From: Thiomargarita sp.
GTDB lineage: Bacteria > Pseudomonadota > Gammaproteobacteria > Beggiatoales > Beggiatoaceae
Reading direction: 5' to 3'
DNA length: 42,291 nucleotides
Assembly: GCA_020721005.1 (NCBI GenBank)
Contig: DYNP01000020.1
Span: 1-42,291, forward strand
In this document: one piece after another, positions 27,201 to 42,291 of the stretch
Position numbering within the stretch: the stretch's first letter is position 1
Layout: each line of letters opens with the position of its first letter
Program-made: the position numbers and the translations under genes
Notes under the pieces: generated by a model
Told to the model about the DNA's origin: nothing
Databases searched by the model: none
The model's input: the letters and a program-made list of their open reading frames with translations, nothing else

Positions 27201-27281
27201 AAGAATTGAGTAAAATGTGAGGGTCAATAAGAAACCAACGGTCCTGGGTAAAAAAAGTGGCATCCTGCCAAAATTATTCAC

Positions 27282-27422
27282 TCAATAGGGTGAATTTGAA
27301 GCGACAAATTGAGACAGCAAATCTTTAACAAATTGACTGTCGCTGAAAGGAATTTTTTGATCTCCTATCTGTTGGTAATTCTCATGGCCCTTGCCAGCAA
27401 TGAGAATCAGGTCATTTGGATT
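27282..27422 (-). pseudogene. murE 3'-end fragment, copy nearest murF
   Basis: The minus strand encodes the last 40-odd residues of MurE (PNDLILIAGKGHENYQQ through SDSQFVKDLLSQFVASN). It then continues SPY before TGA (27284-27282), whereas intact murE stops right after VASN. This copy runs into the undisturbed intergenic sequence before murF and so probably preserves the ancestral murE terminus. It has no start of its own. Confidence 0.8.
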
Positions 27423-27435
27423 TTCTTGTTTCTCG

Positions 27436-27706
27436 TTTTCTTGTTCCCAAGTGCTACTTGGGAATGCAGTCTTGACCGCGTCGCGGTCAATTATTCATCA
27501 GTGCACTCTCTACACAAACAGGAATTAACCCCTGTTATTGTATAAACAAAGGCGGCCAATTAATGACGGCATAGGTTGAAAAATGGGAGGCTTGGTTTTC
27601 ATGGATTTGGTAATGACTGTGTCCCATTGTTCCTATTCCTATTATTTGTACGAACCGCGACGCGGTCAAGACTGCATTCCCAAGTTACACTTGGGAACGA
27701 GAAAAA
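27436..27706. mobile_element. Palindromic MITE-like element, copy A
   Basis: The terminal inverted repeats are about 54 bases each (27436-27490 and 27652-27706), contain the nested palindromes TTCCCAAGT...ACTTGGGAA and GACCGCG-T-CGCGGTC, and match with only a few differences. The 160-base centre is non-coding and includes a small AACAGG/CCTGTT stem. No transposase is encoded, so any movement would need one supplied in trans. Copy B lies 474 bases to the right. Confidence 0.75.
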
Positions 27707-27763
27707 ACCAACGGTCGTGGAAAAAGTAGCATCCTGCCAAAATTATTCACTCAATAGAATCAT

Positions 27764-27895
27764 TCAGTTTGAGGCGACAAATTGAGATAGCAAATCTTTA
27801 ACAAATTGACTGTCGCTGAAAGGAATTTTTTGATCTCCTATCTGTTGGTAGTTCTCATGCCCCTTGCCAGCAATAAGAATCAGGTCATTTGGATT
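27764..27895 (-). pseudogene. murE 3'-end fragment, middle copy
   Basis: This 132-base segment matches the end of murE (28238-28369) with only a few base changes and keeps its reading frame from NPNDLILIAG to VASN-stop. It is preceded by repeated CGAGAAA-like units at the edge of the palindromic element. A 66-codon frame fuses part of that element to the MurE tail but has no ribosome site. Confidence 0.8.
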
Positions 27896-27909
27896 TTCTC
27901 GTTTCTCGT

Positions 27910-28179
27910 TTTTCTCGTTCCCAAGTGCCACTTGGGAATGCAGTCTTGACCGCGTCGCGGTCAATTATTCATCAGTGCACTCTCTACACAAACAGGAATT
28001 AACCCCTGTTATTGTATAAACAAAGGCGGCCAATTAATGACGGCATAGGTTGAAAAATGGGAGGCTTGGTTTTCATGGATTTGGTAATGACTGTGTCCCA
28101 TTGTTCCTATTCCTATTATTTGTACGAACCGCGACGCGGTCAAGACTGCATTCCCAAGTTACACTTGGGAACGAGAAAA
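27910..28179. mobile_element. Palindromic MITE-like element, copy B
   Basis: This has the same organisation and almost the same sequence as copy A, including both nested palindromes and the centre. Its left edge carries extra CTCGTTT units next to the middle murE fragment. It was probably copied together with the murE tail rather than inserted independently. Confidence 0.75.
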
Positions 28180-28237
28180 AACCAACGGTCGTGGAAAAAG
28201 TAGCATCCTGCCAAAATTATTCACTCAATAGAATCAT

Positions 28238-29710
28238 TCAGTTTGAGGCGACAAATTGAGATAGCAAATCTTTAACAAATTGACTGTCGCTGAAAGGAAT
28301 TTTTTGATCTCCTATCTGTTGGTAATTCTCATGGCCCTTGCCAGCAATGAGAATCAGGTCATTTGGATTGGCCTGTTGAATGGCATAACGAATGGCTTGA
28401 GCCCGTTCCGGAATGATGGCGGTGGGATGGAGACAACCCTTGCGAATTTCATCAATAATAGTTTGGGAATGCTCATGACGCGGATTGTCATCGGTCAAAA
28501 TCACCTTATCAGCCTGTTGCTGAGCAATTTGCCCCATCAGCGGGCGCTTACCTCGGTCTCGTTCTCCACCACAACCAAAGATGCACCACAATTGGCCCGT
28601 ACAATGTTGACGCAAGGCAGACAAAGTTTTTTGCAAGGCATCTGGAGTGTGAGCATAATCCACTACTATAGTTGGGTAAGGTGGATAAATAATACGTTCC
28701 ATCCGACCTTGAACAGCTTGTAATTGGCTTAGATGAGCCAGCACTTGTTTAAAAGGATAGCCCAACTTTAACAGAGTAGTTAAACTGCCTAACACATTGC
28801 TGACATTGAATTTTCCCAACAAGGGCAAATGACATTCTCCTTCTCCCCATAAACTGTGAATTTTGAGATGATAACCCTCTTGGTCCCGTTTTAAGACACG
28901 AGCATATACACTGCTTTGGGAATGTTCCTGGCTGTAAGTCAAGGGTACAACATGGGTAGGCAAATTTCCCAATAAATGCTGTCCGAAGGGATCATCTTGA
29001 TTGATAATAGCTGTTTTTAGAGTAGGTTGCATAAACAACCGTTGCTTAGCTTTCCCATATTCCAGCATATTGCCATGGTAATCTAAATGATCCCGGCTCA
29101 AGTTGGTAAATATCGCTGTGCTAAATGTTACCCCATTTGTTCGCCCTTGGTCAAGTGCATGCGAGGAAACCTCCATAGCGACGTGAGAAATAGAACGAGA
29201 ATGAAAGTGAGCCAACTGCTGTTGCAATTGAATTGGGTTGGGTGTAGTATGAGTGGCAGTTTGCAGTTGCCCATACAATCCATAGCCCAATGTACCGATC
29301 AAACCACAAACAACCTCTTGTTTTTGCAATAATTGACTGATGAAATGGGTCGTAGAAGTTTTACCATTAGTGCCTGTAACCCCCATGATGGTCAAATGTT
29401 GAGCTGGGAACTTGTAAAAACGAGCTGCAATTTCCCCCACTCTCTGATTTAAATTGGGAATCTTAACACAAGGCGTTTCCTGAGCCAACCATTCCGTGGT
29501 GGGGTTAGGATCAGAATCCGGTGACACTTCTTGCACTATAGCGACTGCGCCTTTTTGCAGGGCGATTTCAATATAAGCAGCGCCATGAGTGTGCTGCCCG
29601 GCCAATGCAAAAAATAAATCCCCACAATTAACACTGCGACTGTCCAAACTCAGGCCAGTGATGGGTCGGTGATACGGGATGGGTAACGAAATCAATTCAC
29701 TCAGTTGCAT
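28238..29710 (-). CDS. murE: MurE, UDP-MurNAc-L-Ala-D-Glu--meso-diaminopimelate ligase
   Basis: MurE adds the third residue of the peptidoglycan stem peptide. The 490-residue product shows LSLDSRSVNCGDLFFAL, the ATP loop IMGVTGTNGKTSTTHFI, THTTPNPIQLQQ, MEVSSHALDQGR, the Lys-carbamylation region GKAKQRLF, VDYAHTPDALQKTL, FGCGGERDRGKRPLMG and TDDNPRHEHSQ. The DNPR motif marks meso-diaminopimelate specificity. The C-terminal NPNDLILIAGKGHENYQQ is the part duplicated downstream. Its stop directly after VASN differs from the SPY-extended end in the copy near murF. ftsI, the usual upstream neighbour, is absent; a TpsA-like gene lies there instead. Confidence 0.97.
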   Translation of the reverse strand: MQLSELISLPIPYHRPITGLSLDSRSVNCGDLFFALAGQHTHGAAYIEIALQKGAVAIVQEVSPDSDPNPTTEWLAQETPCVKIPNLNQRVGEIAARFYKFPAQHLTIMGVTGTNGKTSTTHFISQLLQKQEVVCGLIGTLGYGLYGQLQTATHTTPNPIQLQQQLAHFHSRSISHVAMEVSSHALDQGRTNGVTFSTAIFTNLSRDHLDYHGNMLEYGKAKQRLFMQPTLKTAIINQDDPFGQHLLGNLPTHVVPLTYSQEHSQSSVYARVLKRDQEGYHLKIHSLWGEGECHLPLLGKFNVSNVLGSLTTLLKLGYPFKQVLAHLSQLQAVQGRMERIIYPPYPTIVVDYAHTPDALQKTLSALRQHCTGQLWCIFGCGGERDRGKRPLMGQIAQQQADKVILTDDNPRHEHSQTIIDEIRKGCLHPTAIIPERAQAIRYAIQQANPNDLILIAGKGHENYQQIGDQKIPFSDSQFVKDLLSQFVASN

Positions 29711-29747: not shown

Positions 29748-32528
29748 TTAATTGGAAGTTGAAGCATTATGGGGTTGTTGAATATGAACTAGGGAATCTA
29801 ATAACTGTCCAGATTTCCAGTCAAATGGGGAACGAGGCACCCCGGCCAATGGTATATAGATGAAACTGCTATTGTCTTCAAGATTAGCCTGTCGAGTAGC
29901 CTCGCAGGATTTCTTAAGTAATTCATCGATATCCATCAAGTTACCCGGTAAAATAATCAAACTGCCACTGACAGTCTCATCAGGTGATTCAATGATGACT
30001 TCGCCATCAATTCCCAATTTTGAAGAAGCATCCACCAAGCTGCCTTCGGACTTCAAATAATTGTTGGAACTGATACGAATTTGTCCCCCTTGTCCTTCAT
30101 AAGCTTGGGCGATCAGGCGACTGTCATTTAAAACCACAAATACAGGATTCGAGACCGTAACATTTCCACCGCCTCCTTCTCCCCCTTTCACACTGGTGGT
30201 TACTTCTCCCTGGAGCAGGTAAAATAGAGAAGGGACCTGGATATGAATATTGCCACCTGCAGCCTCTTTAGCCTCAGTGGAAATCTTGGCATTCTCCACT
30301 TGTAAACGATCAGTCAGGGCAATTTGAATATTGCCTGCATTGCCCATGCCGGTGCTTTCAGAAGTGACAGTTGCTTGTTGATTCAAGGTGAATTGACCCA
30401 AAGTCAGCTCAATGTTCCCAGCCTCAGCGTCAATGGCTGAAGTGCTGATTTCACTGCCCTCAGTTAAGCGTAAAATAGGTGCTCGAATCAGAATTTGACC
30501 AGCATTCCCAGTACTGCCTTCTAAACTGGCGGAAGAAATGGTGGAATGTTTTTGATGCGGTTCCCCATTGATTTGGACCGAGACTGTGTCTGCCACGGTT
30601 ACCGATTCGCTGGCTTGAATGGAAATGCGGCCGCCTTGACCACTGCCGAAAGCAGTCGTACTGCCAATTGTGCTGCCCGCTCGCAATGACAAGTGTTTGG
30701 CCATAATATCGATGGTCCCTGCATCTCCAGTCCCATAGTAGGTGTCAGCCGTGATGCCCCCAGGATAATAGTCTTCCCCCTCGCCTGCATCGGCGATGAA
30801 ATGGCCTTGGATGGCAAATTTGTCAGCCACTTGGATATGCACTCTTCCCCCTCGTCCACTGCCAAAAGTGGCAGTATTGATTGTAGAATCAGTCAGTTGC
30901 AATTGTTGAGCCCGAATGACAATTTCTCCTGCATTGCCTTGTCCATATCCGCTTAAAGTATTGATAGCAGCCGTATTCAACACCGCCAATACTCCCATCA
31001 CTTCCAATTGGATGGTGCCCCCTTCTCCATCCCCTAAAGTAGTACTATTTAATTGGGCCCCGTCTTGGAGAGTTAAATTTTGGGACCGGATGAACAGATG
31101 GCCAGCCGCTCCCTGATCAGCCGTTTCGGAACTGGACAGGAGACCAGTGCCAATTCCAGAAACTGTAACAGAGTCCCGAGCGTTGATTTGAATTTCTCCC
31201 CCCCGGGCTGGACCAAAGGTGCTGCTGCCAATTTGGGCACCGTTATCCAATTGCAGTCGTCCAGTGGTAATGACAATCGTTCCCGCCTGTCCTGCATTTT
31301 CCAAATCACTTTCGGCATTGGCAAATATCCCGCTGCTTCGTCCATCTTGAGCAATACCAGTGATATGCAAAGTTTCATCGATTTGAATATCCAAAGTGCC
31401 CCCCATGCCTGGTCCAAATGAACTGTTGACAATTTGCATACCGTCTGACAAAGTTAGATTTTTGGCTTGAATGTGAATGGTCCCGGCTTGTCCCGCTTGT
31501 GAATGTTGACTTAAGGTATTGGAAAAAATGCCGGCTAGCACCAAACCATTGTCATTAGGGGGACCTCCTTCTGTTAAAATGGCAGTTTCTTGAACAGTTA
31601 GGTTGATATCTCCTGCTTGGCCTATGCCTTGTGTGGAACTGGAAATTCTTGAGCCTTCAGTAAAAGTGAAATTATGGGCTGAAAGGTCAATTTTTCCACC
31701 AGTCTGTTGTTGAGTTTGGGCCAGAATTTGAGTATTTTGAATAGTCAGATCATGTCCTTGCAAATAAATGCTGCCCGCCTGTTGGCCACTGACCTGCAAT
31801 TGACTGTCAGTGATGTGCAAACGTCCTTGTTGACTCAGAGCCGTTGTCAATGGGTTGGCGATGGAGACCGTTTGGGGAGGGGCAGAAACACTGATCAAAT
31901 GCAATTGACCTTCCACGGCTTGCAATTGGGACTGTTGACTGAGTTGCAAATCCCCGGCAATAAGCGCCAAAGTTTGTCCTGATTTTACCGACAGTTGACT
32001 GCCCTCTAATTCAATAGCGGCAGGGGTGGTGGTTAAAAATCCAAAAGTTTGAGGAGCCGCAACGGTCAGCAAATCAGCTTGGGTGAGGTGGGCAGAGAAT
32101 GACCCCGTTTCTCCCAATTGCAATTGATCGGCGGTGCTGAAATAAAAAGCGCCACTAATATCCAAATGGGCATGGGGACCCAACCAAATACCAGTCGGGT
32201 TGAGCAGGTAAAAATTGGCTTGAGGCAAATTTGAGCGGATTGTACCATCAATAACAGAAAGAGTGCCTCCAGTGATACGACTGATCACGTGATGCACTTG
32301 CTCAGGTCCCGAAAAGAATGCAGTTTCGGCACTGTTTAGGTTAAATGTTTGAAAACTATGGAATAAATTTTCTCCCCGTTGTTCTCCCAGTGTTGCAGGA
32401 ATTTCAAATAGGGGACCATTGAGTACGGTGATTTGGTCCTGTTGGCCCAAACTGCCGTCGATAATTACTTCAGCAGATGAATGATAGGACAGTAAGCATC
32501 CTAAGATGATAAGGTGGACATGGCGCAT
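29748..32528 (-). CDS. TpsA-like two-partner secretion exoprotein (filamentous haemagglutinin N-terminal domain)
   Basis: Such proteins cross the outer membrane through a TpsB partner and form a beta-helix outside the cell. ATG 32528-32526 (AAGGA 7 bases upstream) gives a 926-residue protein with a signal peptide (about 1-19, HLIILGCLLSYHSSAE). The haemagglutination-activity domain follows: LFHSFQTFNLNSAETAFFSG, ISRITGGTLSVIDGTIRS and ANFYLLNPTGIWLGPHA. The rest, to about residue 840, is regular beta-helical repeat with the recurring pattern G-x-(A/G)-G-x-I-x-I-x-A-x-x-L-x-L-x-x-G-x-x-I. It ends in a short Cys-containing tail (KKSCEATRQ...FIYIPLAGVPRSPFDW). No TpsB gene lies in the window. 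A start at 32654 would put a non-signal stretch first. Confidence 0.88.
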   Translation of the reverse strand: MRHVHLIILGCLLSYHSSAEVIIDGSLGQQDQITVLNGPLFEIPATLGEQRGENLFHSFQTFNLNSAETAFFSGPEQVHHVISRITGGTLSVIDGTIRSNLPQANFYLLNPTGIWLGPHAHLDISGAFYFSTADQLQLGETGSFSAHLTQADLLTVAAPQTFGFLTTTPAAIELEGSQLSVKSGQTLALIAGDLQLSQQSQLQAVEGQLHLISVSAPPQTVSIANPLTTALSQQGRLHITDSQLQVSGQQAGSIYLQGHDLTIQNTQILAQTQQQTGGKIDLSAHNFTFTEGSRISSSTQGIGQAGDINLTVQETAILTEGGPPNDNGLVLAGIFSNTLSQHSQAGQAGTIHIQAKNLTLSDGMQIVNSSFGPGMGGTLDIQIDETLHITGIAQDGRSSGIFANAESDLENAGQAGTIVITTGRLQLDNGAQIGSSTFGPARGGEIQINARDSVTVSGIGTGLLSSSETADQGAAGHLFIRSQNLTLQDGAQLNSTTLGDGEGGTIQLEVMGVLAVLNTAAINTLSGYGQGNAGEIVIRAQQLQLTDSTINTATFGSGRGGRVHIQVADKFAIQGHFIADAGEGEDYYPGGITADTYYGTGDAGTIDIMAKHLSLRAGSTIGSTTAFGSGQGGRISIQASESVTVADTVSVQINGEPHQKHSTISSASLEGSTGNAGQILIRAPILRLTEGSEISTSAIDAEAGNIELTLGQFTLNQQATVTSESTGMGNAGNIQIALTDRLQVENAKISTEAKEAAGGNIHIQVPSLFYLLQGEVTTSVKGGEGGGGNVTVSNPVFVVLNDSRLIAQAYEGQGGQIRISSNNYLKSEGSLVDASSKLGIDGEVIIESPDETVSGSLIILPGNLMDIDELLKKSCEATRQANLEDNSSFIYIPLAGVPRSPFDWKSGQLLDSLVHIQQPHNASTSN

Positions 32529-33075
32529 GATCAATTCCTTGAGGCAAATTGGCAATACAAGTGTGATTGCTTGTTTGCCTTGATGACAAGTTTGCCCGTT
32601 GCAATGGCAGGGGCTCAAGGGTTTTATAAAAATTATAATTGAGAGGTAATTCAAGGAAACGGGTCAGTTAGTTACGATAAACGCGGTTTAATTTAGATCG
32701 TTTGCAGTTGAAAGATGCTAAAATTGTCACAAAATGGCTCAATTGTCAAGTTGTCTGCTAGAATAGGTTAGAATTACTACGTTAACGTTGGATTTTCTTT
32801 GATCGGATTCAATAAACCCAAATTTGAATTCTCTATTACACTTATTTAAGGATTAATAATTGTCCTGAGAGGTAATGATGGACAAGGGAATCTATTTTGC
32901 GTAAACTGGGAAAATTGTTTAAGAAATGAAACTCGCTTAGCCGTAGTTTGTTCTAAGCTGGGGGAGTTTTCAACCCCATAACAATTCATCTACCCAAGCA
33001 TTGGGAAAGGACCCGGGCCGAAATTGGGCTGATGTACAATGGTTGAACTTAACCTACTTTGAAAAGGAGTAAATG
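32529..33075. other. Intergenic region between the divergent TpsA-like gene and glmS
   Basis: About 545 AT-rich bases must carry both promoters. I see no convincing -35/-10 pair with proper spacing. An imperfect hairpin pairs GCTTAG with CTAAGC around 32935-32958. There is no sign of a glmS ribozyme or of a coding frame. Confidence 0.5.
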
Positions 33076-35198: not shown

Positions 35199-35471
35199 CT
35201 ATGAGCTCTTTTTATGGTGCGTTAGCTATATCAAGTAATTTAATGGGTTGCAAATGATTATAGTGAAATTTTAATGATGACTTTCCAAGTTGGCTCAAAT
35301 AGTGCGTTCACTATTTTCAAGTCAAAATAGACAGAATTCCAAGGTTTAAGTTGATGGTTATGCACCGAGGATTTTTCCCATCTATAACGGGCATTTTTCT
35401 CATCGCAAAATTGGAATAACTGGTCTATGCTTAAACACAATAGCGATGAACAAATTTTTGAGGAGATCAGT

Positions 35472-37136
35472 ATGAACAAGAAGTTATTAGCCATTGCCAT
35501 CAGTGTAACTTTGATGGGTATGAGCGGTTATGCTTATGCGCAAGAAGAAACTGTACCTGTTGAAGGAGATGTACTTGAGGAAACTGTAATTGGGGAAAAT
35601 GCTCCAGTTGGAGAGGAAGCGGTGGCCGAAGAAGTCACTCCAGTTGAAGAAGTGGTGGCCGAAGAAGTCACTCCAGTTGAAGAAGTGGTGACCGAAGAAG
35701 TTTCTCCAGTTGAAGAAGTGGTGACCGAAGAAGTTTCTCCAGTTGAGGAAGTGGTGACCGAAGAAGTTGCTCCAGTTGAAGAAGTGGTAGCCGAAGAGGC
35801 TGCTCCAGTTGAAGAAGTGGTGGTTGTGGAAGTCACTGTGGCGGTTGAGGAGACTAAAGGGGAAGTTGAAGTCGGAGGCAATCCTCATGAATATCCAGCT
35901 CAATGTGTAAATCCTGCAACAGGCGAATTGAAGCCCAATGCTGCCCAACATAAAGAATGCGCAGAAGCCGTTCAAGATTTGGGAGGTGATGCTGGCGAAG
36001 TTGTCATTATTGAAGGTGAAGAAGTTGTTGCCGAAGGTGAAGAGGCTGTTGCTGAAGGTGAAGCAGTCGTTGCTGAAGGTGAAGCAATCGTTGCTGAAGG
36101 TGAAGAGGTCGTTGCTGAAGGTGAAGAGGTCGTTGCTGAAGAAGCAGTGGTTGAGCCCAGCCTTGGTGAAGCAAGTGCCGAGGACATTGCGGCATTGGGA
36201 GCAGCAGAATTGGCAGCTTTACTCCCCGAAGAGCTTGCTCAATTGAGCGCAGTCCAAATTACGGCATTAAGTTTAGAAGCCATGGCAGGTTTGATGAGTG
36301 AACAAGTTCCCCATTTAACTGTGGAGGCTGTGGCAGGTTTCAGCGTAGCTCAACTGGATATGTTGTCAGATGCAGTGAAGTCTGCATTTACTGATGAACA
36401 ACGTCTTAACATGGTCGAATACATATTCCCACCTGTTTACCCAGCAGTTGAAGAAGTTGCTGAGGTCCCAGTGGAGAATGTGGAAGTGCCAGCAGTTGAA
36501 GAAGAAATTGCTCCTGTGGTTGTGGAGGAAGGGGCAGAAACCATTGTAGAAGAGCCCGCTGCAGTGGAAGAAGTTGAGGAGATAGAAGTCGTTGAAGAAA
36601 CAGAGCCAGTGGCAGAGGAATTGCCAGCATTAGGCGCAGTGGCTATCGGTCCCGAAGGTGAAGAATTAGCTACCTCCTCTGAAATAGAAGGTGGACTCAT
36701 TGTAGAGGGAGAATTGGCTGATACGGTGGCCTTGAGTGAAGAAGTGGAAGTCAGTGGCAGTATTGCAGTGGACCCAGAGCATGTTGAGAATTTAAGTGAT
36801 GTGGTGGTTTACGCAGCTTACATGCCTTTGGATGGCAGCTTGCCAGAGCCCATTTACTATATGTTGGATGAAAGTGGGGGCATTTCTTTATGGGACGGTG
36901 CTCCTGCCAGTTTAGTACCTTATATCCGCTTAGATGAGCCCAATGCCCAACTGAACGTGCTTATGTACAAGGGACACTTTGTTTTACCTGGCATTTTGAA
37001 TATTTCCTTCGGTTATCGTTTGATGGATGGCAGCTTAGTTATCAATGGCCAAACCATTGATGTCACGATTGAGGAAGACAGCGTGACTGAAGAACCCACT
37101 CCAGAAGAGCCTGCTCCAATTGATGAGGCTGCTTAA
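35472..37136 (+). CDS. Secreted Glu/Val/Ala-rich acidic repeat protein, paralogue A (unknown family)
   Basis: I do not recognise this 554-residue family. ATG 35472 follows GAGGAGATCAGT and opens a signal peptide (about 1-22, ending YAYA before QEE). The mature protein is extremely acidic. Residues 40-125 repeat an 11-residue unit (VEEVVTEEVSP and variants). Residues 136-167 are a conserved island, GNPHEYPAQC...GELKPNAAQHKEC, with two Cys. About 185-222 repeat EGEEVVA. Residues 235-314 are ten exact octads of the form [ST]xEQhxxL. A further Glu/Val stretch precedes a globular C-terminal region (about 387-536) with VVVYAAYMP, YYMLDESGGISLW, MYKGHFVLPG and FGYRLMDGSLVINGQ. The N-terminus predicts export; a surface, cation-binding or structural role is a guess. 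Confidence 0.75.
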   Translation: MNKKLLAIAISVTLMGMSGYAYAQEETVPVEGDVLEETVIGENAPVGEEAVAEEVTPVEEVVAEEVTPVEEVVTEEVSPVEEVVTEEVSPVEEVVTEEVAPVEEVVAEEAAPVEEVVVVEVTVAVEETKGEVEVGGNPHEYPAQCVNPATGELKPNAAQHKECAEAVQDLGGDAGEVVIIEGEEVVAEGEEAVAEGEAVVAEGEAIVAEGEEVVAEGEEVVAEEAVVEPSLGEASAEDIAALGAAELAALLPEELAQLSAVQITALSLEAMAGLMSEQVPHLTVEAVAGFSVAQLDMLSDAVKSAFTDEQRLNMVEYIFPPVYPAVEEVAEVPVENVEVPAVEEEIAPVVVEEGAETIVEEPAAVEEVEEIEVVEETEPVAEELPALGAVAIGPEGEELATSSEIEGGLIVEGELADTVALSEEVEVSGSIAVDPEHVENLSDVVVYAAYMPLDGSLPEPIYYMLDESGGISLWDGAPASLVPYIRLDEPNAQLNVLMYKGHFVLPGILNISFGYRLMDGSLVINGQTIDVTIEEDSVTEEPTPEEPAPIDEAA

Positions 37137-37194
37137 ATGCCTCAGGTGAATGAAAATGTTGTTTAACTAATCCACCTTTAAGTAAATCCCCATG

Positions 37195-37229
37195 AACCTG
37201 ACAGTTTTTAAAATGCTGTCAGGTTTTTT
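37195..37229 (+). terminator. Rho-independent terminator after acidic protein A
   Basis: AACCTGACAG (37195-37204) pairs perfectly with CTGTCAGGTT (37216-37225) and is followed by T6. It lies 58 bases after the stop, so the two acidic genes are probably transcribed separately. Confidence 0.9.
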
Positions 37230-37273
37230 AATGCTTACTTTGCGTACAATACCTATTTTGGTATGGTTAGAAG

Positions 37274-37369
37274 TTGGAGTAGAGGCTTTAGCCGGACAGC
37301 GGTAAGTTCTCCGTAATTTGAGTGTGTGGAGTAATACCTACCGCCGGCCGGCTAAAGCCTCCACTCCAA
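37274..37369. repeat. Palindromic element with 22-base arms
   Basis: The arm at 37274-37295 (TTGGAGTAGAGGCTTTAGCC and two more bases) is inverted at 37348-37369 with one mismatch. GCGGTA/TACCGC pairs extend the stem inward, giving a long cruciform-capable element between the two acidic protein genes. The remaining 300 bases up to 37672 contain other short GC-rich partial repeats and the promoter of gene B. Confidence 0.75.
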
Positions 37370-37593
37370 TGTACCTTAAGTCAATGGCGGTGCGGCCATC
37401 GCCTCCATTCCAACGCCGATGCCAATAGGATGGACTGATTAATCCGCCCATCCTACCGTACTATTCTGAAAATTCTTTACTTTATGAAATTTTAATGCGG
37501 AACAAAGAGTTATTTGAGATTTATGCGACAGAGTTGGCCATTATGCAACAGTCGATTGAGGATTTTCCTGAATAGCAATTAGGATTTTCCCAC

Positions 37594-37622
37594 TGGATAA
37601 TCCACAAGGGTTTAGCTATAAT
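37594..37622 (+). promoter_or_regulatory. Candidate sigma-70 promoter of acidic protein B
   Basis: TATAAT (37617-37622) is a perfect -10 box. TGGATA (37594-37599) is a four-of-six -35 at 17-base spacing. The start codon is 51 bases further on. Confidence 0.55.
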
Positions 37623-37672
37623 AAAAGGCATGAGTACAAAAACCGTACAAAAACTTTTTTGAGGAGATCAGT

Positions 37673-39715
37673 ATGAACAAGAATTTATTATCCGTAGCCA
37701 TCGGCGCTGCATTGGCCGGTTATATCGGTACTTCCAGCTTAGTATTCGCTCAAGAAGCAGAATCATCCTTGCCTGCAGATACTTCTATTGAAGGAACAGT
37801 GACCGGAGAGGCTGGGGACGTGGGTGAATCCGTAAGCACTGAAGAAGTTGCCGTCGAAGAGATTGCCGTTACTACTTCTGAAGAACCTGCTGTGGAAGTT
37901 GAAGTTGAAACTGAGGAAGCCACCACTGGCAATCCTCCTAAAGGCAATCCCCATGAGTATCCACCTCAATGCGTGCATCCAGTGAGCGGAGAGTTACAAC
38001 CTAATGCCGCACAACATGCCGTTTGCGCAGATGCTATTGCCGAACTCGGCGCAGAAGAGCCTGCAGCTGAAGGCGAAGTAATTCCTGTAGAAGGCGAAGT
38101 TGTGGCTGAAGGCGAAGCCGTCGTAGAAGAAGTGGTTGCCGAAGGCGAAGCCGTCGTAGAAGAAGTGATTGCCGAAGGCGAAGCCGTTGTAGAAGAAGTG
38201 GTTGCTGAAGGCGAAGCCGTTGTAGAAGAAGTGGTTGCCGAAGGCGAAGCCGTTGTAGAAGAGATCGCTATCGAAGGTGAAGCTGTCGCAGAAGAAGTAG
38301 TTGCTGAAGGGGAAGCCGTTGTAGAAGAAGTGGTTGCTGAAGATGAACCCGTTGCAGAAGAAGTGACTGCTGAAGTTGTTGTAGAAGAAGTGACTGTTGA
38401 AGAAGTGGTGGCAGAAGAACCAGTAGTTGAGGAACCTGCCCCTGAGCCTGTTCCCGTCAGTGAGCTCAGCTTGGAAACCATCGCTGCCATGACCCTTGCT
38501 GAAGTTTCTGCATTGACGCCTGAAGAATTGTCTCAATTGACTGCCGCACAGATGGGAGCATTAGCCGCCGAAGCTTTGGCTGGATTGTCTCCTGAACAGG
38601 TATCCAATTTAAGTGTGGAAGCAGTGGCCGGATTGACTGCTTCTCAATTGAGCGCTTTGCCAGAGGAATTGAAGGCTGCGTTCACTGATGAACAACGTCT
38701 GAGTATGGTGGAATTTATTTTTGCCCCAGTTTATCCAGCAGAAGCTGTGGTTGAAGAAGTTGCAGTCACTGAAGAAGCCGTTGCCGAAGAAGCAGCTCCT
38801 GAAGAAGAGACCGTAGCCGAAGAAGCAGCTCCTGAAGAAGAGACCGTAGCCGAAGAAGCAGCTCCTGAAGAAGAAGCCGTAGCCGAAGAAGAAGTAGCTC
38901 CTGAAGAAGAAACCGTAGCCGAAGAAGAAGCAGCTCCTGAAGAAGAAACCGTAGCCGAAGAAGCAGCTCCTGAAGAGGAAGCCGTAGCCGAAGAAATTTC
39001 TGATATTGCAGTTGAAATTGAAGTAGAATTGGCCAGCTTGGGATCCACTGCAGTCACCCCGGAAGGTGAAGAAGTGTCCACCGAAGCCGAAGTCGAAGCC
39101 GGCATGGTTGTGGGAGATGAAGTAGATGCTGCTGCCAACCTCGAAGAAGAAGTCGAAGTATTGGCGGGAGTAACCGTAGACCCAGCCCATGAAGAACAAG
39201 TGGTCGATGTGGTAGTGTATGCAGCTTACCTACCCCCCGGTTTGAGCGGCGCCATGATCTCCTACATGTTGAATGAGGATGGCGGCATTGAGTTGTGGAA
39301 TGATCAACCAGATAGCCTGGTTTCGTTCAAGAATTTAAAGGGCAAAGGTAAGGGCAAAAACAAACGTTTGCAAATGTCCTTATACAAAGGTAAGTTCATA
39401 TTGCCTGGCTTCTTACGAATCTTTGTCGGCTATCGTTTGGAAAATGGCATGATCGTCACCAACAGCCAACCTTTGGAAATCACAGTTGAAGAACCAGCAG
39501 TTGAAGAAGTTGTAGCTGACGAAGCTCCCGCTGAAGAAACTGCAGCCGAAGAAATCGTAGCTGACGAAGCTCCCGCTGAAGAAACTGCAACCGAAGAAGT
39601 GGTTGCTGACGAAGCTCCCGCTGAAGAAACTGCAGCCGAAGAAATCGTAGCTGACGAAGCCCCCGCTGAAGAAACTGCAACTGAAGAAGATGCCGCTTTA
39701 GCAGAAGCTGCTTAA
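37673..39715 (+). CDS. Secreted Glu/Val/Ala-rich acidic repeat protein, paralogue B (unknown family)
   Basis: This 680-residue paralogue of the gene at 35472 has the same plan. Its signal peptide (about 1-26, ending LVFA before QEAE) follows the same GAGGAGATCAGT-ATGAACAAG start context. The Cys island is at 91-122 (GNPHEYPPQC...GELQPNAAQHAVC). Eleven-residue repeats follow (VVEEVVAEGEA, residues about 135-225), then ten octads at 266-345 ending in the shared FTDEQRLSM, then a second 11-residue array (AEEAAPEEETV, about 365-445), the C-terminal domain at about 456-606, and a tail of 15-residue repeats (VADEAPAEETAAEEI). It differs from A mainly in repeat number and in a basic KGKGKGKNKR insert in the C-terminal domain. 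Coding repeats make long antisense frames that are not genes. Confidence 0.75.
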   Translation: MNKNLLSVAIGAALAGYIGTSSLVFAQEAESSLPADTSIEGTVTGEAGDVGESVSTEEVAVEEIAVTTSEEPAVEVEVETEEATTGNPPKGNPHEYPPQCVHPVSGELQPNAAQHAVCADAIAELGAEEPAAEGEVIPVEGEVVAEGEAVVEEVVAEGEAVVEEVIAEGEAVVEEVVAEGEAVVEEVVAEGEAVVEEIAIEGEAVAEEVVAEGEAVVEEVVAEDEPVAEEVTAEVVVEEVTVEEVVAEEPVVEEPAPEPVPVSELSLETIAAMTLAEVSALTPEELSQLTAAQMGALAAEALAGLSPEQVSNLSVEAVAGLTASQLSALPEELKAAFTDEQRLSMVEFIFAPVYPAEAVVEEVAVTEEAVAEEAAPEEETVAEEAAPEEETVAEEAAPEEEAVAEEEVAPEEETVAEEEAAPEEETVAEEAAPEEEAVAEEISDIAVEIEVELASLGSTAVTPEGEEVSTEAEVEAGMVVGDEVDAAANLEEEVEVLAGVTVDPAHEEQVVDVVVYAAYLPPGLSGAMISYMLNEDGGIELWNDQPDSLVSFKNLKGKGKGKNKRLQMSLYKGKFILPGFLRIFVGYRLENGMIVTNSQPLEITVEEPAVEEVVADEAPAEETAAEEIVADEAPAEETATEEVVADEAPAEETAAEEIVADEAPAEETATEEDAALAEAA

Positions 39716-39998: not shown

Positions 39999-40868
39999 TT
40001 ACAACCGTTTGATTTCCTCAACACTCAATCCCGTCTTCAACGCTATCGTTTCCACCTCCAAAACATCTAACAGACTGCGGGCAATTGCTTCTTTTGCCGA
40101 TTTTTCACCCTCATGACGACCTTTTTCTAAGCCAATTTGCTCGCCTTTGACAAATCCATCGTCGTGAGCAGTGTCGACTACACCTTTGATTTCCCAATAC
40201 GTTAATAAACTTTTTCGGTATTGTTCCAATTGTTCCCTGCTTAAATTCGCTTCTTCCAAAGTTGAAAATGCCTTCTCAAAAATCGGCTCTTTTAAAATCG
40301 TGGGGATATGATCAAAATTCTCCAAATTCTTTAGAAAATAGAGCCATTTATCGGAGCGGGTTTCTAATTCATCGGCCTGTTTGTTGAATAACGGCATTTG
40401 GAGGAAACTAAAATGCAGTTTCTCATAAAACAAGTCACCATCTTGGTCTTTAAGCGTGACCTCTCTCAACAATTTTTGTCTTTCTTCATTTTCGTCGTAT
40501 TTGAAATCCAAAATTGCAACGTAGTAAATTGCATTGAGTTTAAAATCCCATTCTCCTTTTTTGGCTTGATCGCGAATTGGAAAGGTTGAATAAAACAGGG
40601 CGCGATCTTTGAAGAAATGCAGTTTGGCCTTTTGCATTTCCACAATAAAATCTTCGCCCGTCACACTTTTGCAGTAAATATCAAAGATCGCTTTTCTTTC
40701 TACAGGCAAATCCGGTAAATTTTCGGGATTTTTGAATTGCAAATCCGCAATTTGGTGTTTGGGCGGCAGCAGTTGGTTGAGGAAATCGGTTAATAAATCT
40801 TTATTCCCTTCTTCACCAAATAATTTTTTGAAACCAAAATCTGTGTAGGGATTCAAATAACGTGACAT
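39999..40868 (-). CDS. Rpn family / PD-(D/E)XK nuclease family putative transposase, copy 1
   Basis: Rpn-type proteins are DNA endonucleases that promote RecA-independent recombination and are often annotated as transposases. The 289-residue protein starts MSRYLNPYTDFGFKKLFGEE, the family hallmark. The nuclease core is FDIYCK (Asp63) and FIVEMQKA (Glu77, Gln79). The C-terminal part is charged and helical, with one copy of EQIGLEKG before RHEGEKSAKEAIARSLLDVL and the end TGLSVEEIKRL. It is the most downstream of three tandem copies on the minus strand, separated from copy 2 by a 55-base spacer that is nearly the same as the next one. Confidence 0.9.
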   Translation of the reverse strand: MSRYLNPYTDFGFKKLFGEEGNKDLLTDFLNQLLPPKHQIADLQFKNPENLPDLPVERKAIFDIYCKSVTGEDFIVEMQKAKLHFFKDRALFYSTFPIRDQAKKGEWDFKLNAIYYVAILDFKYDENEERQKLLREVTLKDQDGDLFYEKLHFSFLQMPLFNKQADELETRSDKWLYFLKNLENFDHIPTILKEPIFEKAFSTLEEANLSREQLEQYRKSLLTYWEIKGVVDTAHDDGFVKGEQIGLEKGRHEGEKSAKEAIARSLLDVLEVETIALKTGLSVEEIKRL

Positions 40869-40923
40869 ACTTTTGTCCTATAAATGAGGGTTAAAAATAC
40901 GCGTTGAAAATTTTGAGCCAAAC

Positions 40924-41829
40924 TTACAATCGTTTGATTTCCTCAACACTCAATCCCGTCTTCAACGCTATCGTTTCCACTTCCAAAACGTCTAATAGAC
41001 TGCGGGCAATTACTTCTTTTGCTGATTTTTCACCCTCATGACGACCTTTTTCTAAGCCAATTTGCTCGCCTTCATGACAACCTTTTTCTAAGCCAATTTG
41101 CTCGCCTTTGACAAATCCATCGTCGTGGGCAGTGTCGACTACGCCTTTGATTTCCCAGTATGTTAATAAACTTTTTCGGTATTGTTCCAATTGTTCCCTG
41201 CTTAAATTTGCTTCTTCCAAAGTTGAAAATGCCTTCTCAAAAATCGGCTCTTTTAAAATCGCGGGGATATGATCAAAATTCTCCAAATTCTTTAGAAAAT
41301 AGAGCCACTTATCAGAGCGGGTTTCTAATTCATTGGCCTGTTTGTTGAATAACGGCATTTGGAGGAAACTAAAATGCAGTTTTTCATAAAACAAATCACC
41401 ATCTTGATCTTTAAGCGTGACCTCTCTTAGCAGTTTCTGTCTTTCTTCATTTTCGTCGTATTTAAAATCCAAAATTGCAACGTAGTAAATTGCATTGAGT
41501 TTAAAATCCCATTCTCCTTTTTTGGCTTGATCGCGAATTGGAAAGGTTGAATAAAACAGGGCGCGATCTTTGAAGAAATGCAGTTTGGCCTTTTGCATTT
41601 CCACAATAAAATCTTCGCCCGTCACACTTTTGCAGTAAATATCAAAGATCGCTTTTCTTTCTACAGGCAAATCCGGTAAATTTTCGGGATTTTTGAATTG
41701 CAAATCCGCAATTTGGTGTTTGGGCGGCAGCAGTTGGTTGAGGAAATCGGTTAATAAATCTTTATTCCCTTCTTCACCAAATAATTTTTTGAAACCAAAA
41801 TCTGTGTAGGGATTCAAATAACGTGACAT
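40924..41829 (-). CDS. Rpn family / PD-(D/E)XK nuclease family putative transposase, copy 2
   Basis: The 301-residue protein is almost identical to copy 1; visible changes include Asp to Asn in QA(D/N)ELETR and Thr to Ala in HIP(T/A)ILKEP. The catalytic residues Asp63, Glu77 and Gln79 are kept. The length difference comes from the C-terminal repeat: EQIGLEKGCHEG followed by EQIGLEKGRHEG, that is, two units. It is preceded and followed by matching spacers, so the array arose by tandem duplication. It looks intact. Confidence 0.9.
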   Translation of the reverse strand: MSRYLNPYTDFGFKKLFGEEGNKDLLTDFLNQLLPPKHQIADLQFKNPENLPDLPVERKAIFDIYCKSVTGEDFIVEMQKAKLHFFKDRALFYSTFPIRDQAKKGEWDFKLNAIYYVAILDFKYDENEERQKLLREVTLKDQDGDLFYEKLHFSFLQMPLFNKQANELETRSDKWLYFLKNLENFDHIPAILKEPIFEKAFSTLEEANLSREQLEQYRKSLLTYWEIKGVVDTAHDDGFVKGEQIGLEKGCHEGEQIGLEKGRHEGEKSAKEVIARSLLDVLEVETIALKTGLSVEEIKRL

Positions 41830-41884
41830 ACTTTTGTCCTATAAATGTGAGTTAAAAATACGCGTTGAAAATTTTGAGCCAAAC

Positions 41885-42291
41885 TTACAACCGTTTGATT
41901 TCCTCAACACTCAATCCCGTCTTCAACGCGATCGTTTCCACTTCCAAAACGTCTAATAGACTGCGGGCAATCGCTTCTTTTGCTGATTTTTCACCCTCAT
42001 GACGACCTTTTTCTAAGCCAATTTGCTCGCCTTTTTCTAAACCAATTTGTTCGCCTTTTTCTAAGCCAATTTGCTCGCCTTTGACAAATCCATCGTCGTG
42101 AGCAGTGTCGACTACACCTTTGATTTCCCAATACGTTAATAAACTTTTTCGGTATTGTTCCAATTGTTCCCTGCTTAAATTCGCTTCTTCCAAAGTTGAA
42201 AATGCCTTTTCAAAAATCGGCTCTTTTAAAATCGCGGGGATGTGGTCAAAATTCTCTAAATTTTTTAGAAAATAGAGCCATTTGTCGGAGC
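41885..42291 (-). CDS. Rpn family / PD-(D/E)XK nuclease family putative transposase, copy 3 (start beyond right edge)
   Basis: This is the C-terminal 134 residues of a third copy, open in frame to the end of the window (SDKWLYFLKNLENFDHIPAIL at the edge). The repeat has expanded to three consecutive EQIGLEKG units before RHEGEKSAKEAIAR. The end, GLSVEEIKRL, is the same as in the other copies. The N-terminal nuclease core lies outside the window, so it is not possible to say whether it is intact. Confidence 0.9.
   Translation of the reverse strand, partial: SDKWLYFLKNLENFDHIPAILKEPIFEKAFSTLEEANLSREQLEQYRKSLLTYWEIKGVVDTAHDDGFVKGEQIGLEKGEQIGLEKGEQIGLEKGRHEGEKSAKEAIARSLLDVLEVETIALKTGLSVEEIKRL

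Follow-up and report, generated by a model that had tools for sequence, protein, structure and literature searches.

What are two adjacent genes for secreted, acidic repeat proteins doing in Thiomargarita sp., and does the folded domain that both products carry belong to them alone? The genes, A (positions 35472–37136) and B (37673–39715), stand in tandem on the forward strand of contig DYNP01000020.1, in a window of 42,291 nucleotides (the whole stretch of DNA that was analysed), and each open reading frame (ORF) is uninterrupted along its full length. Towards the end of each protein lies a domain of about 150 residues (residues 383–533 of A and 452–605 of B), hereafter the CTD. A sequence-only reading of the window had taken the CTD for a module private to the A/B family. 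That view is not sustained: of the 42 Beggiatoaceae genomes searched, 40 have the CTD, on many unrelated secreted proteins, and it is a domain family new to Pfam and NCBIfam, with several hundred profile matches in the 42 genomes. A domain that ends many otherwise unrelated secreted proteins across the Beggiatoaceae suggests a lineage-specific tag that sends proteins to the surface or holds them there. It is proposed, at about even chances, that A and B both serve as cargo of a surface-display route specific to this lineage, in which the CTD sorts or retains its protein.

Profile matches to the CTD were found in all 30 high-quality family genomes and in all 25 genera, at 1–48 per genome, and the two genomes that gave none are 59% and 52% complete. 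Twenty-five is also the number of genera of GTDB Beggiatoaceae in an excerpt of a 2024 paper (PMC11172852). A search at the level of the order gave the same 42 genomes. In a phylum sample of 398 genomes, the Thiomargarita genome itself (G000, the own genome) was the only one to match, and in a class sample of 369 genomes the CTD occurred in six: four family members and two genomes from outside the family, G251 and G273. G251 has two copies (L098, L103), one closing a DUF2202-like protein and the other a CTD-like domain close to the N-terminus of a second protein, and G273 has a weak match on a sulfatase-like protein; the labels DUF2202-like and sulfatase-like were given by eye. The 11 named CTD matches belong to Thiomargarita, Thioploca and metagenome-assembled genomes of Thiotrichaceae, in agreement with the lineage to which the sequence-only reading had pointed. 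Searching the own genome with the CTD profile yielded 30 matches, and searching it with B yielded 21, which outside the window comprise 13 with the CTD only, one (L022) with the CTD and the octads described below, and two with octads only.

Alignment A1 holds 41 of 44 CTD copies; L034, L059 and the first copy of L053, which are partial or degenerate, were left out. Against Pfam and NCBIfam, these 41 CTDs gave scattered single-member matches alone (best E 0.0013 and 0.0038, respectively), and a PDB sequence search with the CTD reached E values of 0.42 and 0.6 at best; no family in any of the three covers the domain. Furthermore, the Pfam and NCBIfam models for C-terminal sorting signals, those of the type IX secretion system (T9SS) and PEP-CTERM among them, matched none of the 41 at E 0.1. 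In open-access PubMed Central (PMC) literature, the scope of which excludes subscription papers and preprints, no description of the domain was found among the matches listed, lineage-aimed queries included. The earlier judgement that A and B represent an unrecognised family holds, in that no library match to either rose above the cut-offs.

Modelled in isolation by AlphaFold2 with the 41-row alignment, the CTD (151 residues) is predicted to be a β-sandwich with one short helix, ending in a β-strand (predicted local distance difference test, pLDDT, 97.3; predicted template modelling score, pTM, 0.90). VIA-align placed the model among immunoglobulin (Ig)-like sandwiches, the best of which were all tied at a Z of about 8 and included nanobodies and the carbohydrate-binding domain of Wzt. 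Foldseek returned no match at E 0.001 or better, the lowest value being 0.0024 for Wzt and other Ig-like sandwiches. The likeness to these proteins lies in the overall fold (VIA Z 7.3–7.7 over 103–113 residues), whereas sequence identity is 4–6%, and the resemblance is no evidence of kinship. One explanation that this fold invites is that the CTD is a carbohydrate-binding module, by which secreted proteins are fastened to the sheath or exopolysaccharide of the cell that makes them; this would be a special case of surface retention without a role in secretion. Such a module would suit the mucous sheath described for Beggiatoaceae in an excerpt of PMC8612568, and the Wzt domain does stand among the non-antibody matches of both structural searches. 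We nevertheless judge it unlikely that the CTD is only this, given that no Foldseek match reaches E 0.001, that a VIA Z of 7–8 may, by the tool's own note, reflect merely a common arrangement, and that no binding-site residues were identified in the CTD.

The cargo joined to the CTD is varied. A Pfam scan of 15 own-genome proteins (diverged matches on C11, C44, C104 and C112 were left out) detected CAP, LamG, right-handed β-helix, Lcl_C, NHL propeller, lectin with VWA, InlB repeats, cadherin/Calx-beta, PKD and ASH domains, and four of the 15 matched no family. Among relatives, 77 of 81 N-terminal parts were scanned (L200, L037, L098 and L099 were left out), and these contained 79 Pfam families, with DUF2202 in five of the 77. 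Many CTD proteins (L026, L027, L028, L029, L031 and L033) have Gly/Asn-rich, β-roll-like repeats before the CTD (GG.L.G.I.N.S.VGG...DV.LA); in the proteins scanned (L026–L029 and L031, not L033), no Pfam family had its best stretch there among the matches listed. In G002 and G026, which belong to one genus, leucine-rich repeats, fn3, propeptide_C25 and peptidase_C25 follow one another in the gingipain arrangement and the CTD comes last (residues 2046–2199 in a protein of 2201). The two loci, from two family genomes, are:

L166, 1139–7804: gingipain-type peptidase with leucine-rich repeats, terminated by the CTD
L175, 1131–7733: gingipain-type peptidase with leucine-rich repeats, terminated by the CTD

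The Porphyromonas gingipain RgpB ends in a T9SS CTD (excerpt of PMC4804311). A C25 protein closed by the CTD is as expected if the CTD takes the slot of a sorting domain. In G010 and G028, the CTD stands directly behind a choice-of-anchor I domain and a metallophosphatase domain follows it; therefore, the CTD need not be last. Choice-of-anchor domains carry varied anchors.

The usual place of the CTD was determined from 113 distinct ORFs, 99 of which were judged for end distance, the other 14 being set aside for want of a visible stop or because the domain end was unreached. The CTD ends at most five residues from the stop in 76 of these 99 and at most ten in 82, with a median of two, and 13 of the 99 run on for more than 25 residues. 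Among complete ORFs, 69 of 84 have the CTD within ten residues of the stop, compared with a mean of 3.5 and a maximum of 11 in 10,000 draws of random placement. For genomes other than the own genome, the CTD lies within ten residues of the stop in 69 of 79 ORFs. When copies of at least 100 columns were counted in the 113 ORFs, 102 had one, seven had two and four had none, with some loci ending at contig or stretch borders and tandem copies perhaps undercounted. By contrast, L031 contains ten copies of an InlB-type repeat.

The main rival to a sorting role would make the CTD a common Ig-like domain for structure or adhesion, multiplied in Beggiatoaceae, that often stands last because a stable sandwich caps multidomain surface proteins. 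Its fold is generic, tied with nanobodies and the Wzt domain at the best VIA Z of about 8, many cargoes contain other Ig-like modules, and the CTD also occurs in internal, N-terminal and tandem positions. Several observations weigh against a sorting or retaining tag, beginning with these exceptions: in L023, L082, L110, L111, L114, L160, L186 and L189 the CTD lies inside the protein or has other sequence on its C-terminal side, seven ORFs contain two copies, and the A/B pair and its two nearest relatives continue for 21–96 residues past the domain (the 96 residues of L022 cross an N stretch). All CTD profile matches were fetched for the own genome alone, and there 11 of 18 judged ORFs (of 22) have the CTD within ten residues of the stop and 14 within 25; the relatives' sample, drawn from matches with high scores, may be biased towards canonical copies. 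Twelve of the 40 CTD-bearing genomes have only 1–4 matches, and a crude signal-peptide rule accepted 76 of 95 CTD ORFs against a high control rate of 40 of 93. In addition, the CTD proteins showed neither a cleavage motif nor a transmembrane tail, and no translocase or sortase dedicated to them was identified. An ordinary Ig-like domain is, however, harder to reconcile with a CTD that is mostly single and last, that is also found behind small CAP and DUF2202 proteins, and that is near-universal in Beggiatoaceae and rare outside them in the class and phylum samples. It is therefore regarded as possible, if on the doubtful side. The likeliest reading of these comparisons is that the CTD would work like the CTD of the T9SS without being a T9SS CTD.

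The T9SS CTD (Por_Secre_tail, PF18962; RgpB) resembles the present domain in fold class (an Ig-like sandwich, predicted for the domain studied here), in its usual position at the extreme C-terminus, in its unrelated exported cargo, gingipain-type proteases included, and in being lineage-limited with many copies per genome. The likeness of fold is one of fold class only, the RgpB CTD being described as an Ig-like sandwich in the excerpt of PMC4804311; that RgpB CTD is not among the 50 VIA matches listed bears neither way. The two differ in size, with 65 ordered residues in RgpB (same excerpt) and 75 positions in PF18962 compared with about 150 here, and the CTD of Beggiatoaceae is without a T9SS profile match and at times internal or tandem. 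Could it be a diverged T9SS sorting domain, serving true type IX secretion? Fold class, usual position and gingipain-type cargo are what would be expected of one, yet at E 0.1 the T9SS models, Por_Secre_tail included, match none of the 41 CTDs, the domain is about twice the length of the ordered RgpB CTD, and Por_Secre_tail was found in one of the 42 family genomes, which is not the own genome (its control matched weakly and in one genome). Type IX secretion proper is accordingly considered highly improbable. SprA (TIGR04189) had no match in the own genome and likewise none in all 14 controls, so that its silence weighs on neither side.

The PEP-CTERM/exosortase, GlyGly-CTERM/rhombosortase and MYXO-CTERM/myxosortase systems are similar in another respect: from several to dozens of proteins per genome are alike in their C-terminal part alone, with the tail near the stop (excerpts of PMC1569441, PMC3237569 and PMC11980579). 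For PEP-CTERM, 87% of proteins have fewer than ten further residues, with a median of three (excerpt of PMC1569441), much as for the CTD with its median of two. Their tails differ from the CTD in being a short motif, helix and basic stretch, whereas the CTD is folded and has no transmembrane helix. The excerpt of PMC3237569 gives one GlyGly-CTERM protein and no rhombosortase for Beggiatoa sp. PS. Exosortase (PF09721) is present in 16 of the 42 family genomes, with no match in the own genome. The CTD was rejected as a PEP-CTERM cargo tail: it is a sandwich of about 150 residues, it matches no PEP-CTERM model at E 0.1, and the own genome yielded no exosortase.

If the CTD acts as a sorting or retaining domain, A, B and the other CTD proteins would be exported by Sec into the periplasm and would then pass the outer membrane. 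A type II secretin scores above the cut-off in 40 of the 42 family genomes; therefore, a general outer-membrane route exists, and the type II secretion machinery, its secretin near-universal here, is the candidate. The CTD would direct the protein to the cell surface or sheath, or keep it there, whether by acting as a signal for translocation in the manner of the T9SS CTD or as a non-covalent anchor that binds, for example, a surface polysaccharide. In many family genomes, the matches listed include at least two or three separate type II-like secretins of nearly full length. A second, specialised type II-like secretion system in these genomes is possible. In the most far-reaching form of the proposal, which is tentative and rather unlikely, giant sulfur bacteria would own an undescribed export and surface-anchoring system, based on a folded C-terminal sorting domain with up to 48 profile matches per genome and a role like that of the T9SS CTD in Bacteroidota; its translocase or receptor might be an additional type II-like secretin, and A and B would be stalked members.

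The plan of A and B had been described as a tandem pair of secreted acidic repeat proteins of common design, and this stands: both have open ORFs, in-frame repeats, a two-Cys island, ten octads and the CTD. The order of modules is signal peptide, acidic repeats, two-Cys island, acidic repeats, ten octads, acidic repeats, CTD and acidic tail, with the following features:

35472–37136, forward strand: gene A, 554-residue secreted acidic repeat protein, start set by the leader in common with B
35472–35540, forward strand: A signal peptide (about residues 1–23, AYA/Q), by eye
35602–35823, forward strand: A first Glu/Val repeat, tandem, period 33 bp, 6.6 copies
35877–35987, forward strand: A two-Cys island (Cys145, Cys163), among the 42 genomes solely in G000 and G007
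36011–36141, forward strand: A second acidic repeat, tandem, period 21 bp, 6.2 copies
36180–36419, forward strand: A ten octads, predicted α-solenoid of short helices (alignment, AlphaFold2), sub-threshold ALTTAQ_rpt match
36618–37070, forward strand: A CTD, predicted Ig-like β-sandwich (profile, alignment, AlphaFold2)
37071–37133, forward strand: A acidic tail, 21 residues past the CTD
37673–39715, forward strand: gene B, 680-residue paralogue of A
37673–37750, forward strand: B signal peptide (about residues 1–26, VFA/Q), by eye
37943–38053, forward strand: B two-Cys island (Cys100, Cys118)
38096–38375, forward strand: B acidic repeat, tandem, period 33 bp, 8.5 copies
38474–38713, forward strand: B ten octads (alignment)
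38771–38995, forward strand: B acidic repeat, tandem, period 33/69 bp
39026–39487, forward strand: B CTD (profile, alignment)
39488–39712, forward strand: B acidic tail, 75 residues, period 45 bp

Both signal peptides were assigned by eye, with no prediction program. The repeat periods (33, 21, 33, 33/69 and 45 bp) all preserve the frame. Each protein has exactly two Cys, all within the island, and one tryptophan. The relatedness of A and B is far above chance (B against the A CTD, E 4e-34), with identities of 69% in the island, 60% in the octads and 47% in the CTD, and spacers that diverge in unit and length. The octads number ten in A, B and the G007 orthologue, as counted in the alignment. 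In an AlphaFold2 model of full-length A, made with two relatives as further input, mean pLDDT is 48 and the spacers fall below 50; the octads (pLDDT 76–86) are alternating short helices forming an α-solenoid, the island reaches about 65–69, and the CTD is weakly ordered with only three sequences as input. The predicted disorder of the spacers, the predicted order of the modules and module identities of 47–69% agree with the earlier picture of conserved modules on flexible acidic spacers. In the proposed arrangement, the spacers would be extended polyanionic stalks that hold the island and octad solenoid off the CTD. The expectation that the architecture ends in the CTD was borne out as to conservation of the domain, and corrected by the acidic tails that lie beyond it in both proteins. 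The octads resemble the ALTTAQ repeat (PF20080; E 0.0025 in A, 0.00068 in B); membership of that family was rejected, the scores of 17.9 (A) and 19.7 bits (B) being below the gathering score of 26.4. Octads are also seen in proteins L061 (in a very long array), L033 and L034.

Both A and B have an isoelectric point (pI) of 4.05 and net charges per residue of −0.22 and −0.24, respectively, and their spacers range from −0.26 to −0.43. The extremely acidic chemistry first attributed to the family is true of this pair but extends less well to the G007 orthologue, whose first spacer is Thr/Ser/Ala/Asp-rich with −0.135 per residue, compared with −0.33 in A and −0.26 in B. Across these three proteins, flexibility of the spacers is better kept than charge. 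This bears on a further explanation, raised in the sequence-only reading, in which A and B bind calcium or other metals or coat mineral or sulfur inclusions. The strong negative charge of the A and B spacers is what would recommend it, and nothing beyond that charge was found in its favour: no calcium-binding family matched A or B, the first spacer of the G007 orthologue is weakly acidic and Thr/Ser-rich, and the CTD is common to CAP, lectin and NHL proteins that give no hint of mineral. A cytoplasmic inclusion coat is less likely because A and B carry a signal peptide. Altogether, calcium binding or mineral or inclusion coating is held to be very unlikely, and a sheath component is possible.

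Unlike the CTD, the head of A and B is narrowly distributed. The Cys island is present in two of the 42 family genomes, namely the own genome (A and B) and G007 (one copy), and the remaining matches among the 42 are weak and partial, at E 0.004 or worse. G007 has the sole full-length orthologue outside the own genome, and the 16 kb around it match the window in the A/B homologue alone, with no conserved gene order. L022 is a third own-genome paralogue, with octads, Asp-rich repeats and the CTD. In the CTD tree, A, B, L022 and the G007 orthologue form one clade (support 100/98); therefore, these CTDs remain with octad-bearing proteins. What had been anticipated was a family confined to the lineage and constant in its order of modules; limitation to the lineage was found, and the head that completes the order occurs in those two genomes only. 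Given this narrow head and the single CTD clade, A and B appear as one narrow type of cargo, duplicated in tandem, for a domain that is broadly spread.

The duplication can also be read in the leader. The ribosome-binding site and start region are identical over 26 bases in A and B (TTTTTGAGGAGATCAGT-ATGAACAAG), and on this account the start of A is placed at 35472 and not at the upstream ATG at 35427; the duplication therefore took in the leader. The 13-mer TGAGGAGATCAGT has exact matches solely ahead of A and B in 17 stretches totalling 323,590 bases (the window, L022–L036 of the own genome and L146 of G007). The leader is not a cis motif common to CTD genes, being absent upstream of 14 other own-genome CTD genes and of the G007 orthologue. 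Promoter and terminator scans gave counts at chance level; a 10-bp stem followed by T was seen by eye downstream of A, and the terminator scan did not call it.

Upstream of the pair lies glmS, and downstream a row of PD-(D/E)XK transposase-family genes. At 39999–42289 of the window there are three near-identical tandem genes, the last truncated at the window end; they vary chiefly in the copy number of an in-frame GEQIGLEKG-type repeat, and the two complete ones match PDDEXK_2. Elsewhere in the window, a 474 bp tandem repeat (27252–28369; 2.4 copies, 96%) lies between, and overlaps, two neighbouring Mur-ligase genes, and a gene for a TPS-secretion-domain (TpsA-like) protein (29748–32654) adjoins Mur-ligase and glycosyltransferase-4 genes.

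Even as a mere anchor or adhesion module, the CTD would be a domain whose profile has several hundred matches across the 42 genomes and to which no Pfam or NCBIfam model corresponded here. If it does sort or retain its proteins, a single profile would mark a large share of the surface and extracellular proteins in Beggiatoaceae, a family with giant members that are hardly culturable, and would open a way into the construction of their sheath, their attachment and their extracellular digestion. It would also be a T9SS-like tag that arose by convergence in an order of Gammaproteobacteria, and evolution would then have settled more than once on folded C-terminal sandwiches as sorting signals.

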